Source: Kineococcus sp. NBC_00420 (GTDB taxonomy: Bacteria; Actinomycetota; Actinomycetes; Actinomycetales; Kineococcaceae). Taken from it: DNA of 64,000 bases. A program made the position numbers and the translations under genes. Below, one piece after another: positions 2,517 to 11,987 of the stretch. The stretch's first letter is position 1. The number at the start of each line of letters is the position of its first letter. The stretch spans positions 3,658,001 through 3,722,000 of the forward strand of contig NZ_CP107930.1 of NCBI RefSeq assembly GCF_036021035.1, written 5' to 3'. The notes under the pieces were generated by a model. That model ran no database searches and had not been told where the DNA came from. It saw only the letters and a program-made list of their open reading frames with translations.

Positions 2517-2604
2517 CCGCCCACTGTGGCACCGGCTCGCGCCCCGCGCTCGGGACCGGGTCCCGGTTTGCCTGGTGCGCGCCCCCGTCGTAGGTTCGCC
2601 CCAG

Positions 2605-2687
2605 CCATCCAGAGCGACCGAGAGACCTGGCTCGTCGACGTCGCAGCAACCACCCCGCGGGGAAGGTGCTACCGCCAGGACCGATGG
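2605..2687 (+). promoter_or_regulatory. SAM riboswitch (SAM-I/SAM-IV superfamily), translational type
   Basis: The segment has the S-box core. P1 is CCATC (2605-2609) with GATGG (2683-2687). P2 is GCGAC (2614-2618) with GTCGC (2640-2644), with an inner CGAG/CTCG helix. The conserved AGCAACC follows P2, then a P3 hairpin (CACC 2651-2654 with GGTG 2665-2668) and the AGGTGCTA element. The P2 loop CCTGG (2626-2630) is complementary to CCAGG (2675-2679), the expected pseudoknot. The 3' strand of P1 overlaps the GGGAG ribosome site (2686-2690) of the next gene, so SAM binding should hide the site and shut off translation. The exact subclass is not settled. Confidence 0.88.
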
Positions 2688-2699
2688 GAGAACCGTTCT

Positions 2700-4028
2700 G
2701 TGAGCACCCTGCACGACACCGTCCTCGCGACGCCCAGCGAACCCCTCGTCCGCCGCCGGGCGGCGCTGGGGAGCTTCGTCGGCACCACCATCGAGTGGTA
2801 CGACTACTACCTCTACGGCACGGCCGCGGCGATCGTCCTCGGCCCGCTGTTCTTCCCGAACGTCGGTGGCGCGGTCGGCGTGATCGCCGCGTTCGCCACC
2901 TACGCCGTGGGTTTCGCCGCCCGCCCCCTCGGCGGTGCGGTGGCCGGTCACATCGGCGACCGGGTGGGCCGCAAGGCGGTCCTCGTGGCCTCGTTGCTGG
3001 TCATGGGGATCTCCACGGCGGCCATCGGTCTGCTCCCCACCCACGACCGGATCGGGGTGTGGGCCCCGGTCCTGCTGGTCGCGGCGCGACTGCTGCAGGG
3101 TTTCTCGGCCGGGGGTGAGTGGGGCGGGGCCGTCCTGCTCGCCGTCGAGCACGCCCCCACCGGCCGGCGCGGTCTGTTCGGCGCGATCCCGCAGATGGGT
3201 TCCGCGGCCGGCATGGTCCTGGCCAGCGGGGGTTTCTGGCTCACCCGCACCCTGACCTCGAGCGAGAACTTCCTCGCCTGGGGGTGGCGGATCCCGTTCC
3301 TGGCCAGCGCCGTGCTCGTCGTCATCGGGTTGGTCATCCGGCTCAAGGTCACCGACTCCCCGGCGTTCACCGCGCTGCGCGAGGCCGACGCGACGTCGCG
3401 CCGACCGGTCGCCGAGGTGCTGGCGACGAACAAGCGCGGGGTGCTCCTGACGACCGGCATGCGGTTGGGCCAGAACGGCGCCTACGTCCTCTACACGGTG
3501 TTCGCGCTGAACTACCTGACCAACCACGTCCGCGAGGACGGGGCCGACGTCGGGCTGCTCGCCGTCCTCGTCGCCTCCGTCGTGAGCCTCGCCGCCACCC
3601 CGTTGTGGGGTCTGCTCTCGGACCGGGTGGGTCGCAAACCCGTCTACCTGTTCGGGTCGGTCCTCACCGCGGTGTTCACGGTGCCCGCGTTCCTGCTGCT
3701 CGACACCGGCTCCACCGTCCTGATCGTGGGCGCGATGGTCATCGCGATCAACCTCGGTCACGACAGCCAGTACGGCGCGCAGGGCGCGTTCTTCGCCGAG
3801 CAGTTCGACAGCCGCACCCGCTACAGCGGTGCGTCCCTCGGGTACTCCATCGGCGCGGTCCTCGGCGGCGGTCTGACCCCGCTCATCGCCGCGTCGCTGC
3901 TGGCCGCGGGGAACGGTTCGCCCTGGATCGTCGCGGGGTACCTGAGCTTCCTCGCCGTCCTCACCACCATCTCGGCGGCGCTCACCCGCGAGACCGCGCA
4001 CCGACCTCTGGAGGGACTGTCCCGTTGA
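2700..4028 (+). CDS. MFS transporter, metabolite:H+ symporter (MHS) family
   Basis: The 442-residue protein begins with the MHS hallmark FVGTTIEWYDYYLYG in the first membrane segment and has 12 predicted membrane helices with the GDRVGRK-type loop repeated in both halves (GHIGDRVGRKAV near residue 85, SDRVGRKPV near 310). Relatives import dicarboxylates, shikimate, betaine or sulfonium compounds by proton symport. The GTG start at 2700 sits 9 bases after GGGAG, which the upstream SAM riboswitch can mask. The next gene overlaps its stop codon, so both are under SAM control. That context, not the protein itself, suggests the cargo is an organosulfur compound or methionine precursor. Confidence 0.9.
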   Translation: MSTLHDTVLATPSEPLVRRRAALGSFVGTTIEWYDYYLYGTAAAIVLGPLFFPNVGGAVGVIAAFATYAVGFAARPLGGAVAGHIGDRVGRKAVLVASLLVMGISTAAIGLLPTHDRIGVWAPVLLVAARLLQGFSAGGEWGGAVLLAVEHAPTGRRGLFGAIPQMGSAAGMVLASGGFWLTRTLTSSENFLAWGWRIPFLASAVLVVIGLVIRLKVTDSPAFTALREADATSRRPVAEVLATNKRGVLLTTGMRLGQNGAYVLYTVFALNYLTNHVREDGADVGLLAVLVASVVSLAATPLWGLLSDRVGRKPVYLFGSVLTAVFTVPAFLLLDTGSTVLIVGAMVIAINLGHDSQYGAQGAFFAEQFDSRTRYSGASLGYSIGAVLGGGLTPLIAASLLAAGNGSPWIVAGYLSFLAVLTTISAALTRETAHRPLEGLSR

Positions 4029-5386
4029 GTTCTGAACCGTTGCGCCTCAACGCCTTCGCCATGGCCTGCGTCGGCCACCAGGCCGCGGGGCTGTGGTCGC
4101 GACCGGAGGACCGCAGCGCGGACTACCGGACCCTCGCGCACTGGACGAACCTCGCCCGACTCCTCGAGCGCGGGGGTTTCGACGCGCTGTTCCTCGCCGA
4201 CGTCCTCGGCACCTACGACGTCCACGGGGGATCGCGCGACGCGGCGGTCCGCGCCGCCGTGCAGGTCCCCGTCAACGACCCGCTCGCCGCGGTGTCGGCG
4301 ATGGCCGCGGTCACGGAGAACCTGGGTTTCGGTCTCACGGTGACGACGACGTACGAGCAGCCGTACTCCCTGGCCCGCCGGCTCACGACGCTGGACCACC
4401 TCACCGGCGGCCGCGTCGCGTGGAACGTCGTGACGGGCTACCTCGACTCGGCCGCGAAGAACCTCGGTCTCACCGCCCAGGTCGCCCACGACGAGCGCTA
4501 CGAGGTCGCCGAGGAGTACCTGGAGGTCTGCTACAAGCTCTGGGAGGGTTCCTGGGAGGACGACGCCGTCGTCCGCGACGCCGGGCGCGGGATCTACGCC
4601 GACCCGGCCAAGGTCCACGACATCGACCACCACGGGAAGTACTTCGACGTCCCCGGGGCGTTCCTCTGCGAACCCTCACCGCAACGGACACCGGTGATCT
4701 TCCAGGCGGGTTCTTCGCCCCGCGGGCAGGAGTTCGCGGCCAGGCACGCGGAGTGCGTGTTCATCATCGCGCCGACCGCGAAGATCGCCCGCAGGTCCGT
4801 CGACTCCCTGCGCGAGCAGGTCGAACGCGCCGGTCGCGACCCGCGGTCGGTGCAGGTCCTCGCCGGCCTCACCACGGTCGTCCGCAGCAGCGACGAGGAG
4901 GCGCACGCGCTGCTCGCCGACTACCGCGAACACGCCAGCCGCGAGGCCGCCCTCGCGTTGTTCGGGGGGTGGACGGGCGTCGACCTCGCCGGTCGCGCCG
5001 CCGACGAGACCCTGCAGCACGTGACCACCGACGCGAACCGGTCCGCCCTGGCGAGCTTCACGAACGACCCCGACCGGGAGTGGACGATCGACGACCTCGC
5101 GCAGTTCGTCTCCGTGGGGGGTCGGGGTCCGGTCCTCGCGGGTTCCCCGCAGACGGTCGCCGACCACCTCGAGGAGTTCGCGGCGGAGGCCGACGTCGAC
5201 GGGTTCAACCTGATGTACGCCACGATGCCCGGGACCTTCGTCGACGTCGTCGACCACCTCGTCCCCGAACTCGACCGGCGCGGTCGCACCGCCCCGAAAC
5301 CGGCCCCCGGGACGACCCTGCGGGAACGACTCGGCGGCGGGGCCCGGCTGCCGGGCACCCACGTGGGCGCCGGTTTCCGTCGCTAG
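4025..5386 (+). CDS. FMNH2-dependent LLM-class monooxygenase, NtaA/SnaA/DszA family
   Basis: The 453-residue protein is a luciferase-like TIM-barrel monooxygenase. It shows the family's RVAWNVVTGYLDSAAKNLG segment near residues 130-150, a KYFDVPGAF stretch and the QAGSSPRGQEFAARHAE motif of the NtaA/DszA branch. These enzymes use FMNH2 from a separate reductase to oxidise nitrilotriacetate, dibenzothiophene sulfone, dimethyl sulfone and similar compounds. Translation starts at TTG 4025, whose last bases form the TGA of the transporter gene, with GGAGGGA at 4010-4016. Co-transcription behind a SAM riboswitch argues for release of sulfur from an imported organosulfur compound. No flavin reductase gene is adjacent. 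Confidence 0.9.
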   Translation: MSSEPLRLNAFAMACVGHQAAGLWSRPEDRSADYRTLAHWTNLARLLERGGFDALFLADVLGTYDVHGGSRDAAVRAAVQVPVNDPLAAVSAMAAVTENLGFGLTVTTTYEQPYSLARRLTTLDHLTGGRVAWNVVTGYLDSAAKNLGLTAQVAHDERYEVAEEYLEVCYKLWEGSWEDDAVVRDAGRGIYADPAKVHDIDHHGKYFDVPGAFLCEPSPQRTPVIFQAGSSPRGQEFAARHAECVFIIAPTAKIARRSVDSLREQVERAGRDPRSVQVLAGLTTVVRSSDEEAHALLADYREHASREAALALFGGWTGVDLAGRAADETLQHVTTDANRSALASFTNDPDREWTIDDLAQFVSVGGRGPVLAGSPQTVADHLEEFAAEADVDGFNLMYATMPGTFVDVVDHLVPELDRRGRTAPKPAPGTTLRERLGGGARLPGTHVGAGFRR

Positions 5387-5437: not shown

Positions 5438-7021
5438 GTGACCCGTCTACGTGACTTGAACGTCGCTTCCAAGCTGTTCGCCGGCTTCGGCGTCGTCTGC
5501 CTGCTGCTCGCCACCGTGGTGGGGGTGGGCTGGGCGAAGCTCAGCTCCTCGCAGGGGAACCTCACGACGATGTCGTCGTCGGGTCTCGCCTCGGTGCAGT
5601 CGATCCTCACCGTGCAGGTGGAGTTCCTGCAGGCGCGCATGGACGTGACCAACGTGGCCCTCACCTCCGACGCCGCGGCCAAGCAGAGCGCGCTGGACGC
5701 CGTGACCGCCGACGACACGGCGCTGGACGCTGCCTGGGCCACCTACCTCGCCTCCGGCCCGGCTGCGAAGGCCGCCGACCGGGACGCCTTCGCCGCCAGC
5801 CTCAAGCAGTACCGCGACGCCCGCGTGCAGCTCGTCGCCCTGGCCAAGGGTGACGACCGGGCCGGGTACATCGCCTACCGCACCGCCAGCATCAGCCCGG
5901 TCGCGAAGCAGATCACCGACGAGCTGAAGACCATGACCGCCAGCGAGCAGCAGGCCGCGGTGGACATGGCCGCCGCCGGCGCGTCCGCCTACCGCACGGC
6001 CGTCGCGCTGCTGCTGGCCCTCGGCGCCGTCGCGATCGCCGTCGCGGTCGTCGTCGCCGTCGTGGTCTCCCGCTCGGTCGCCCGGCCCCTGGCCCGCACC
6101 CTCGTGGTCGTGCAGGGCATGGCCGAGGGCCGCCTCGACCAGCGCGTCGGCATCGTCAGCCGCGACGAGGTCGGCCGCGTCGCCGGTGCGCTCGACACCA
6201 CCATGGACCGCCTCGCCGACTCCATGCGCCGGATCAGCGCGAACGCCTCCGTCCTCGCGAGCTCCTCCGAGCAGCTCGACGCCGTCGCGACCCGTCTCTC
6301 CGCCGGGGCCGAGGAGGCCGCCGTGCAGACGCAGGTCGTCTCGGCCGCGACCGAGGAGATCTCGGCCAACATCGGCACGGTCGCCGCCGCCGGCGAGGAG
6401 ATGACCGCGGCCATCCGCGAGATCGCCACCAGCACCGCCGAGGCCAGCTCCACCGCCGCGGACGCCGTCTCGGCCGCGGGCGTCGCGGGGGAGACCCTCG
6501 AACGCCTCTCGGTCTCCAGCCGGGAGATCGGCGAGGTCGTCAAGCTCATCACCTCCATCGCGGAGCAGACGAACCTGCTGGCGCTGAACGCCACCATCGA
6601 GGCCGCCCGTGCCGGGGAGATGGGCAAGGGCTTCGCCGTCGTCGCCGGTGAGGTGAAGGAACTGGCCCAGCAGACCGCGCGGGCCACCGAGGAGATCGTG
6701 GCCAAGGTCGGCTCCACGCAGGCCGACGCCTCGGCCGCGGCCGCCGCGATCAGCCAGATCACCGACGTCATCGCCCGCATCGACGGGTTGCAGTCGACCA
6801 TCGCCGCCGCCGTCGAGGAGCAGTCCGCGACGACCTCGGAGATGGTCCGCAACGTCACCGAGGTCTCGTCCGGCTCGCAGGAGATCGCCTCGAACATCTC
6901 CGGCATCGCCGCCTCCGCCGACGAGACGACGGCCGGGGCGACCCAGACCGCCGACACCGCCGGCGAGCTCTCCCGTGCCGCCGCCGAGCTGAACGACCTG
7001 GTGGGCGCCTTCCGCTTCTGA
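5438..7021 (+). CDS. Methyl-accepting chemotaxis protein (chemoreceptor 1)
   Basis: The 527-residue receptor has TM1 at about 11-32, a roughly 155-residue four-helix-bundle-type extracytoplasmic domain, TM2 at about 188-210, a HAMP domain (about 211-263) and a cytoplasmic signalling coiled coil. The hairpin tip is present in the segment with [21 protein letters not shown], where CheA and CheW bind. It ends in DLVGAFRF without a CheR-tethering pentapeptide. Start GTG 5438 is chosen because [14 protein letters not shown] matches the N-terminus of the second receptor at 15676; the ribosome site is weak. The ligand is unknown. It is monocistronic and converges on the phosphatase gene. Confidence 0.95.
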
Positions 7022-11637: not shown

Positions 11638-11719
11638 GGCGGGTTGCCCGAGTGGCCAAAGGGAGCGGATTGTAAATCCGCCGGCGTAGCCTACGTTGGT
11701 TCGAATCCATCACCCGCCA
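11638..11719 (+). tRNA. tRNA-Tyr (GTA)
   Basis: The 82-nt cloverleaf has acceptor GGCGGGT (11638-11644) paired with ACCCGCC (11712-11718), a GTA anticodon in the loop of TTGTAAATC, a long class II variable arm and the T-loop GGTTCGAATCC. The long arm and anticodon fix it as tyrosine. The CCA end is not encoded. Confidence 0.96.
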
Positions 11720-11730
11720 CGTCGCGAGTC

Positions 11731-11765
11731 CGCGACCCGGTGCCGGTCTCCGGCACCGGGTCGCG
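11731..11765 (+). terminator. Strong hairpin after tRNA-Tyr
   Basis: A 16-bp perfect stem (11731-11746 with 11750-11765) with a 3-base loop follows the tRNA by 11 bases. There is no T-run behind it. It may terminate the tRNA-Tyr transcript or serve as a processing signal before tRNA-Thr. Confidence 0.5.
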
Positions 11766-11813
11766 TCATGTAGGGTCGTCACCGGCCGTACACGCGGCAG
11801 CACAACCAGTTTG

Positions 11814-11885
<72 letters not shown>

Positions 11886-11914
11886 CGCAACCGGCGGCTG
11901 GGCCCGCCGGACGC

Positions 11915-11987
11915 GGCGGGGTAGCTCAGTTGGTAGAGCAAGCGGCTCATAATCGCTGTGTCGCCGGTTCAAGTCCGGCCCTCGCTA
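11915..11987 (+). tRNA. tRNA-Met (CAT), elongator type
   Basis: The 73-nt cloverleaf has acceptor GGCGGGG (11915-11921) paired with CCTCGCT (11980-11986) using two wobble pairs, an anticodon loop CTCATAA giving CAT, and T-arm GCCGG/CCGGC. The first acceptor pair and the lack of the three GC pairs below the anticodon loop argue for an elongator rather than the initiator. It lies 29 bp after tRNA-Thr. Confidence 0.94.

Follow-up and report, generated by a model that had tools for sequence, protein, structure and literature searches.

A SAM-I-type riboswitch without P4 that probably controls a transporter–monooxygenase operon for sulfur scavenging in Kineococcus

The analyzed stretch of DNA (the window) comprises 64,000 nt of Kineococcus sp. 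NBC_00420 (contig NZ_CP107930.1, positions 3,658,001 to 3,722,000). Near its start, an aptamer of the S-adenosylmethionine (SAM) riboswitch class SAM-I is followed by two genes, one for a transporter of the major facilitator superfamily (MFS) resembling metabolite:H+ symporters (MHS) and one for a flavin mononucleotide (FMN)-dependent luciferase-like monooxygenase (LLM) of the NtaA/DmoA family (Table 1). We consider it likely that this SAM-I-type riboswitch, which lacks the P4 helix, keeps the two genes from being translated at high SAM, and that they serve sulfur scavenging. The RNA probably senses SAM, and a sulfur compound would most likely be taken up and opened only when methionine or SAM is short. 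At the level of sequence comparison, sulfur scavenging under SAM control is well supported because the operon is conserved, because other SAM switches of the genus form a fitting regulon, and because switch–LLM loci recur in Arthrobacter and Bacillota.

A SAM-I-type aptamer without P4

The original prediction described an S-box-like RNA with P1, P2, P3 and a pseudoknot to the P2 loop, and the covariance search bears this out. The Rfam model of SAM-I (RF00162) matches the aptamer with 57.4 bits against a gathering threshold of 44.4 (E = 1.2e-10 in the window, 4.1e-13 when 221 bases are searched), the best score of its clan, with one clan mate scoring lower. In 11 Kineococcus genomes (G000-G010), RF00162 finds 86 matches (84 over the cut-off, 5-13 per genome), hereafter the genus switches. 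A model of the genus, R1, gives the aptamer 103.8 bits, this aptamer being among the 31 genus switches from which R1 was built, and gives the next best match in the window 16.5 bits.

Compensatory changes in relatives are present in P2a, P3 and the pseudoknot. The alignment holds 31 of the 86 genus switches, namely the six that precede this operon and its close relatives, and others less than 92% similar, with switches longer than 100 nt outside that group excluded. Across the 26 named pairs, 95.5% of cells hold bases that pair, and six of these pairs change on both sides (P2a, two; pseudoknot, two of five; P3, one; outermost P1, one). P2a and the pseudoknot are 100% paired and P2b is invariant; the double change in P3 is one base pair in one of the 31 sequences. 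Slid controls reach 28.8-51.3% pairing and at most 6 double-change cells (19 observed), and four of five shuffle measures stand out, the observed value being reached by 0, 8, 0 and 0 of 500 shuffles. The five core pairs of P1 are invariant and therefore neither support nor oppose the structure, and of the two outer P1 pairs one fails to form in 14 and the other in 22 of the 31 sequences.

P4, the helix that makes SAM-I a four-way junction, is absent, since only four bases separate the pseudoknot strand from P1. The span from GGTGC to GATGG measures 17 or 18 nt in all 86 genus switches, every one of which lacks P4, as does L086, and it is equally short in both Arthrobacter switches. Another 12 actinobacterial switches were inspected, nine from among the best-scoring and three from among the shortest listed; a P4 hairpin is present in 11 of them, two with a short one, and missing from L245 (genome G042). 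Both of the inspected Bacillota switches have P4. By these sequence features the aptamer is a P4-less SAM-I variant and not a standard SAM-I. It shares with SAM-I a score over the gathering threshold, P1, the split P2 with its kink-turn layout, a P3 that is short here, the P2-loop pseudoknot and the core segments, and differs in the missing P4 and in its targets, a transporter and a monooxygenase instead of a methionine enzyme.

Two related classes were considered and rejected as the primary class, RF00162 being the best of the clan and the split P2 and PK-1 being SAM-I-like. SAM-IV likewise lacks the SAM-I P4 helix and has PK-2 and P5, and SAM-I/IV has an undivided P2, no PK-1 and a P4 (PMC6890682). 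The aptamer thus shares a related core and the missing P4 helix with SAM-IV (PMC6890682), but its kink-turn layout is of the SAM-I type, and by inspection there is seemingly no room for P5 or PK-2 because the ribosome site and start codon come directly after P1. Compared with SAM-I/IV, P2 is divided here, PK-1 is present with compensatory changes, and P4 is absent.

It is highly improbable that this RNA is a SAM-I variant binding another ligand, such as S-adenosylhomocysteine or a related thioether. Such a change of ligand would fit the loss of P4 throughout the genus and a departure of the aptamer from the conserved pair in J3/4, whose second A is not kept. However, the segments that hold SAM in SAM-I, namely GGUGC, the AU steps of P1 and GCAACC, are invariant in the genus switches or, for GCAACC, kept in 85 of 86, and switches built in the same way stand before metE and MetZ, which are classical SAM targets.

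Placing the ribosome site within the 3′ side of P1 is a known platform and mechanism of SAM-I (PMC2258182), and the layout around GGGAG is similar among the genus switches. No terminator-like site was found between the aptamer and the GTG, on which ground an intrinsic terminator platform was rejected for the locus. An alternative hairpin, GGTGCT (2665-2670) with AGCACC (2703-2708), appears in a 117-nt fold, and its downstream half is by eye only partly kept in orthologues. A transcript from the possible promoter in Table 1 would begin where the aptamer does; evidence for this promoter is weak because a consensus scan found no sigma-70 site.

Table 1. Coordinates of the riboswitch and operon features within the window.
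Feature	Position	Strand	Basis or remark
SAM-I-type (S-box) aptamer without P4	2602-2690	+	RF00162, R1
P1 5′ strand CCATC	2605-2609	+	invariant with its partner in 31/31 aligned and 86/86 genus switches
P2a (2614-2618/2640-2644) and P2b (2622-2624/2631-2633), kink-turn layout	2614-2644	+	
Pseudoknot strand in P2 loop, CCTGG	2626-2630	+	pairs with 2675-2679
P3, base 2645-2651/2665-2670, apical CCC/GGG	2645-2670	+	
Pseudoknot strand in J3/4, CCAGG	2675-2679	+	partner 2626-2630, 5 bp
P1 3′ strand GATGG	2683-2687	+	covariance model, alignment, genus switches
Shine-Dalgarno-like GGGAG	2686-2690	+	9 nt before GTG; first two bases within P1
MHS-like MFS transporter, 442 aa, GTG start	2700-4028	+	TIGR00883, PF00083
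NtaA/DmoA-family FMN-dependent LLM monooxygenase, 453 aa, TTG start	4025-5386	+	TIGR03860
Possible promoter: TTTGCC (2567-2572), 18 nt, TAGGTT (2591-2596)	2567-2596	+	by eye; weak

The operon and its conservation

The two genes form an operon as predicted; the overlap between them is not one of start codons, since the TTG start at 4025 overlaps the TGA stop of the transporter gene (a TTGA junction). The transporter scores over the cut-off of PF00083, and below those of the shikimate transporter model NF007414 (374.3 bits, cut-off 538) and the model of the betaine transporter ProP (282.6 bits, cut-off 544). The monooxygenase belongs to TIGR03860 (535.9 bits, cut-off 279.7). Its closest solved relative is the dimethyl sulfide (DMS) monooxygenase DmoA (6ak1; 533 bits, 241 of 449 columns or 53.7% identical), followed by the alkane monooxygenase 3b9n (469 bits), and further solved relatives include enzymes for nitrilotriacetate, ethylenediaminetetraacetate (EDTA), hexachlorobenzene and riboflavin. 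The operon differs from DmoA in the pairing of the enzyme with a transporter and in holding no reductase gene, and a paralogue at L008 scores higher against 6ak1 (580 bits) than the operon enzyme does.

A special case of sulfur scavenging, possible though rather unlikely, is that the enzyme acts on DMS itself, as DmoA does, and that the transporter imports dimethylsulfoniopropionate (DMSP) or a methylthio-carboxylate which yields DMS or methanethiol in the cell. DmoA is the nearest solved enzyme, and ProP, which can carry DMSP, is distantly similar to the transporter. Known routes of DMS are its cleavage, giving methanethiol and formaldehyde, and its oxidation to dimethyl sulfoxide (PMC13352529). 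Yet the alkane enzyme is nearly as close, the transporter is nearer the shikimate model than the betaine model, and neither gene of the operon is a DMSP lyase.

A close orthologue of the enzyme (85-88%) is present in five of the ten other Kineococcus genomes, that is in six of 11 with the genome under study. In each of the five, a switch lies 1336-1358 nt ahead of the enzyme gene and the transporter fills the space between them, starting 4-11 nt after the switch. Across a class sample of 246 genomes, with scoring confined to the top six or seven candidates of each genome, a close transporter (E ≤ 1e-120) is found in three and a close enzyme (E ≤ 1e-150) in 13, this genome included; all three transporters lie directly before the enzyme. 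In one of the three genomes, G241, an SfnB-like gene (275.8 bits, cut-off 430.9) comes ahead of the pair.

We also surveyed the best 80 of at least 576 named loci with a relative of the enzyme. Five of these 80 carry a relative of the transporter (E ≤ 1e-8); of these five relatives, one is distant (35%) and does not adjoin the enzyme gene. R1 matches 13 of the 80 (E ≤ 0.001), and Rfam, run on 35 of the 80, places RF00162 over its cut-off in the same 13, which are two Kineococcus loci, one of Arthrobacter sp. SF27 and 10 of the 15 Bacillota loci examined. The Arthrobacter strain has a switch–MHS-like–LLM operon and a second switch before a DmoA-like LLM. The pairing of these two gene families under SAM control, unfamiliar to the original prediction, is thus not unique to this locus, as it occurs in six Kineococcus genomes and in Arthrobacter sp. 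SF27. The Bacillota operons likewise place a relative of the same monooxygenase under SAM-I control; two of them (L016, L023) differ in having P4, a terminator-like hairpin after the switch (by eye) and an SsuE-type FMN reductase between the S-box and the LLM relative, and L016 also in an MFS transporter of another family.

Transporters on Rhodococcus and Shinella plasmids were considered as sulfur systems and dropped, as no LLM relative (E ≤ 1e-10) lies on the fetched stretches around them. A close plasmid copy was also rejected: seven plasmid records match by megablast, none covering more than 80% of the query. Downstream of the operon, a chemotaxis-receptor gene (4HB_MCP_1, HAMP, MCPsignal) follows on the same strand after about 50 nt (5438-7021), and three tRNA genes lie at 11638-11987; three such genes also follow the operon in Kineococcus sp. 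TRM81007 (L013, 9971-10314), which would fit vertical inheritance of the locus.

The SAM-switch regulon of the genus

The genome under study has six RF00162 matches, one of them the aptamer described here. Of the other five, one precedes metF (by eye) and metE, one a rhodanese (by eye) together with MetZ (over cut-off) and a weakly MetE-like gene, and one leads directly into SfnG (594 bits, cut-off 382.95). The remaining two stand before leader peptides, followed in one case by a MetY-like protein (just below cut-offs) and a weaker TIGR03860 relative (267.3 bits, cut-off 279.7), and in the other by an apparent ATP-binding cassette (ABC) operon (by eye) with a DmoA-like LLM (571.5 bits) and a DszC/SfnB-like protein (below both cut-offs). 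The binding protein of this apparent ABC operon matched no NCBIfam model. In the class sample, the other matching genomes have one SAM-I match, five of them two, though these counts come from stricter filters than the genus counts and from few scored candidates.

An LLM gene (E ≤ 1e-60) lies within 5.5 kb after 16 of the 86 genus switches, and conversely 17 of the 72 such genes of the genus follow a switch on its strand at no more than 5.5 kb, against none on the opposite strand of the downstream side and two on the same strand upstream of a switch. Nine further switches lead straight into SfnG, one of them (L149) below the cut-off, so that 25 genus switches precede an LLM monooxygenase. Other targets are a weaker LLM (cluster 10, 6 more switches), MetZ/MetY-type enzymes (15), metE (9) and a sulfonate-type ABC ATPase (7), which is below its cut-off and has an SsuA-type partner above it. 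These groups overlap, the clusters were made by blastp with only representatives annotated, and where a contig ends the genes after the switch are cut off from view, completely so at L148, L186 and L189.

It is on this regulon and these partner genes that the proposed organosulfur role rests, and together with the conservation of the operon they support the earlier suggestion of an uptake-plus-oxidation route. We regard it as improbable that the enzyme acts on a non-sulfur substrate (an amino-polycarboxylate, alkane or aromatic), as several of its relatives do, and that its SAM control is accidental. A related transporter does lie within an acyl-CoA cluster, but SAM-I before an LLM recurs in Kineococcus, Arthrobacter and Bacillota, and its partners there are SfnG, SfnB-like, SsuA/SsuB-type and SsuE-type proteins. 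In Pseudomonas, the organosulfur systems of sulfate starvation are regulated by proteins such as SfnR and CysB. The sfnG, msuEDC and ssuEADCB systems likewise use flavin monooxygenases for sulfur acquisition, and the SfnG of this genome is SAM-switched; the difference is the use of an RNA switch here instead of proteins.

At ribosome-site distance, 36 of the 86 genus switches are followed by a gene of at least 100 codons and another 36 by a short open reading frame (ORF) in which a Cys codon comes late. For 11 switches the short ORF lacks Cys (9 of the metE type), for two there is nothing by our rule and for one a contig end. In the two cases with nothing (L144, L157) the model match extends beyond P1 and inspection by eye shows a leader ORF starting with ATG; with these two, the switches that gate a leader of the Cys type rise from 36 to 38. 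These two loci also have a second GATGGAG after the first P1 3′ strand, with the leader ORF starting inside it, and it may be an alternative P1 partner. At the metE loci (L007, L124, L137, L152, L159, L169, L181, L187, L194) the switch gates an ORF of 18-22 codons without Cys, whose TGA at L007 overlaps the ATG of metF, suggesting coupling.

The ORFs of the Cys type have 24-51 codons (L008, L011, L126-L128, L131-L133 and others). An alignment of 36 peptides, 34 with Cys and two without (two further Cys peptides were omitted as identical or nearly so), gives the consensus RRRHVDL, and by eye 34 have a Cys nine residues after an invariant Asp. The NCBI putative leader peptide NF042934 is matched by 27 of the 36 at E ≤ 0.1 (best 3e-10), and two peptides scored singly fall below its cut-off. 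Cysteine leader peptides are known in Actinobacteria (PMC1262725), and a translated leader under riboswitch control is known for a B12 switch (PMC11260477). The resemblance of the genus peptides to cysteine leader peptides suggests that SAM and cysteine may be sensed in series at these loci. The operon at 2700-5386 has no such leader ORF. In G190, a genome of the class sample with the gene pair, a short ORF (L203, about 2728-2834) ending ...ITAMANICRPGPVNYAATT overlaps the transporter start and is possibly a Cys leader replacing the SAM switch.

Proposed mechanism and its weight

Translational control, as the original prediction held, is likely given the covariance model, the covariation, the conservation of the operon and the SAM regulon. 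At high SAM, P1 would be closed and part of the ribosome site hidden. At low SAM, P1 would open, a ribosome could bind at GGGAG and start the transporter at the GTG (2700), and the TTGA junction would couple translation of the monooxygenase to that of the transporter. The MHS-like transporter would then import a small, probably anionic or zwitterionic organosulfur compound, which the DmoA-like enzyme, using FMNH2 from reductases encoded elsewhere in the genome, would oxidize at a C-S bond to release methanethiol or an oxidized sulfur product. Candidate reductases are two PF01613 matches and one SsuE-like protein below its cut-off, one of each adjoining at genome positions 2368810-2369756. The released sulfur may feed sulfhydrylases of the MetZ/MetY type or cysteine synthesis, the former being plausible because other SAM switches of the genome precede such sulfhydrylases.

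Several observations weigh against this reading. On the RNA side, the predicted covering of the ribosome site by the P1 3′ strand stands for the first two bases of GGGAG and fails for the other three, so full occlusion is uncertain. One of the shuffle measures, that of further pair types, does not stand out, as 179 of 500 shuffles have at least as many. The folding energy is ordinary, with z = +0.88 over 117 nt and −0.23 over 89 nt, and the evidence for the RNA thus comes from the covariance model and from compensatory changes instead of stability. Each Arthrobacter switch is followed by about 90 nt before a start codon is reached, which implies a different platform there. Some switch targets in the genus are not sulfur genes by name, including a GlcD-like oxidase (L150, with a switch below the cut-off) and a methyltransferase (L183, L193).

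On the gene side, the transporter fails to reach the cut-off of its best-scoring family, TIGR00883 (404.7 bits against 443.45), for which reason we call it MHS-like. The operon supplies no flavin reductase of its own. The gene pair also occurs without RF00162, in two Amycolatopsis loci (L014, L015) among the 80 surveyed and in two genomes of the class sample (G190, G241), neither of which has any RF00162 match; the pair is therefore not dependent on SAM-I. DMS, on which DmoA acts, is volatile and should need no transporter, and the presence of one argues for a polar compound over DMS itself. The Rhodococcus plasmid transporters are 56-57% identical to this one, and the annotated one lies beside acyl-CoA genes, which hints at a carboxylate-like substrate.

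Soil bacteria, including an actinomycete, live on the sulfur of DMS, and flavin monooxygenases have been identified in Acinetobacter baylyi (PMC13352529); the word riboswitch is absent from the main text of that paper. In the literature within reach, which includes few subscription journals, we found no publication that joins a SAM riboswitch to these genes and no report of S-boxes in Kineococcus.

The pairing of the two genes with the switch ties members of a large flavin-monooxygenase family, and a transporter, to shortage of methionine or SAM, which would narrow their substrates to sulfur compounds and make these testable by growth assays. The locus also shows a compact SAM-I-type aptamer without P4 that has multiplied into a genus-wide sulfur regulon. 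We tentatively propose, as a broader picture that is somewhat less than even in its chances, that the sulfur-starvation response of Kineococcus may run largely through RNA: a P4-less SAM-I subtype at 5-13 copies per genome, about two fifths of them gating a cysteine-type leader, with this operon as a SAM-only branch that would import and open an organosulfur compound new to the enzyme family.

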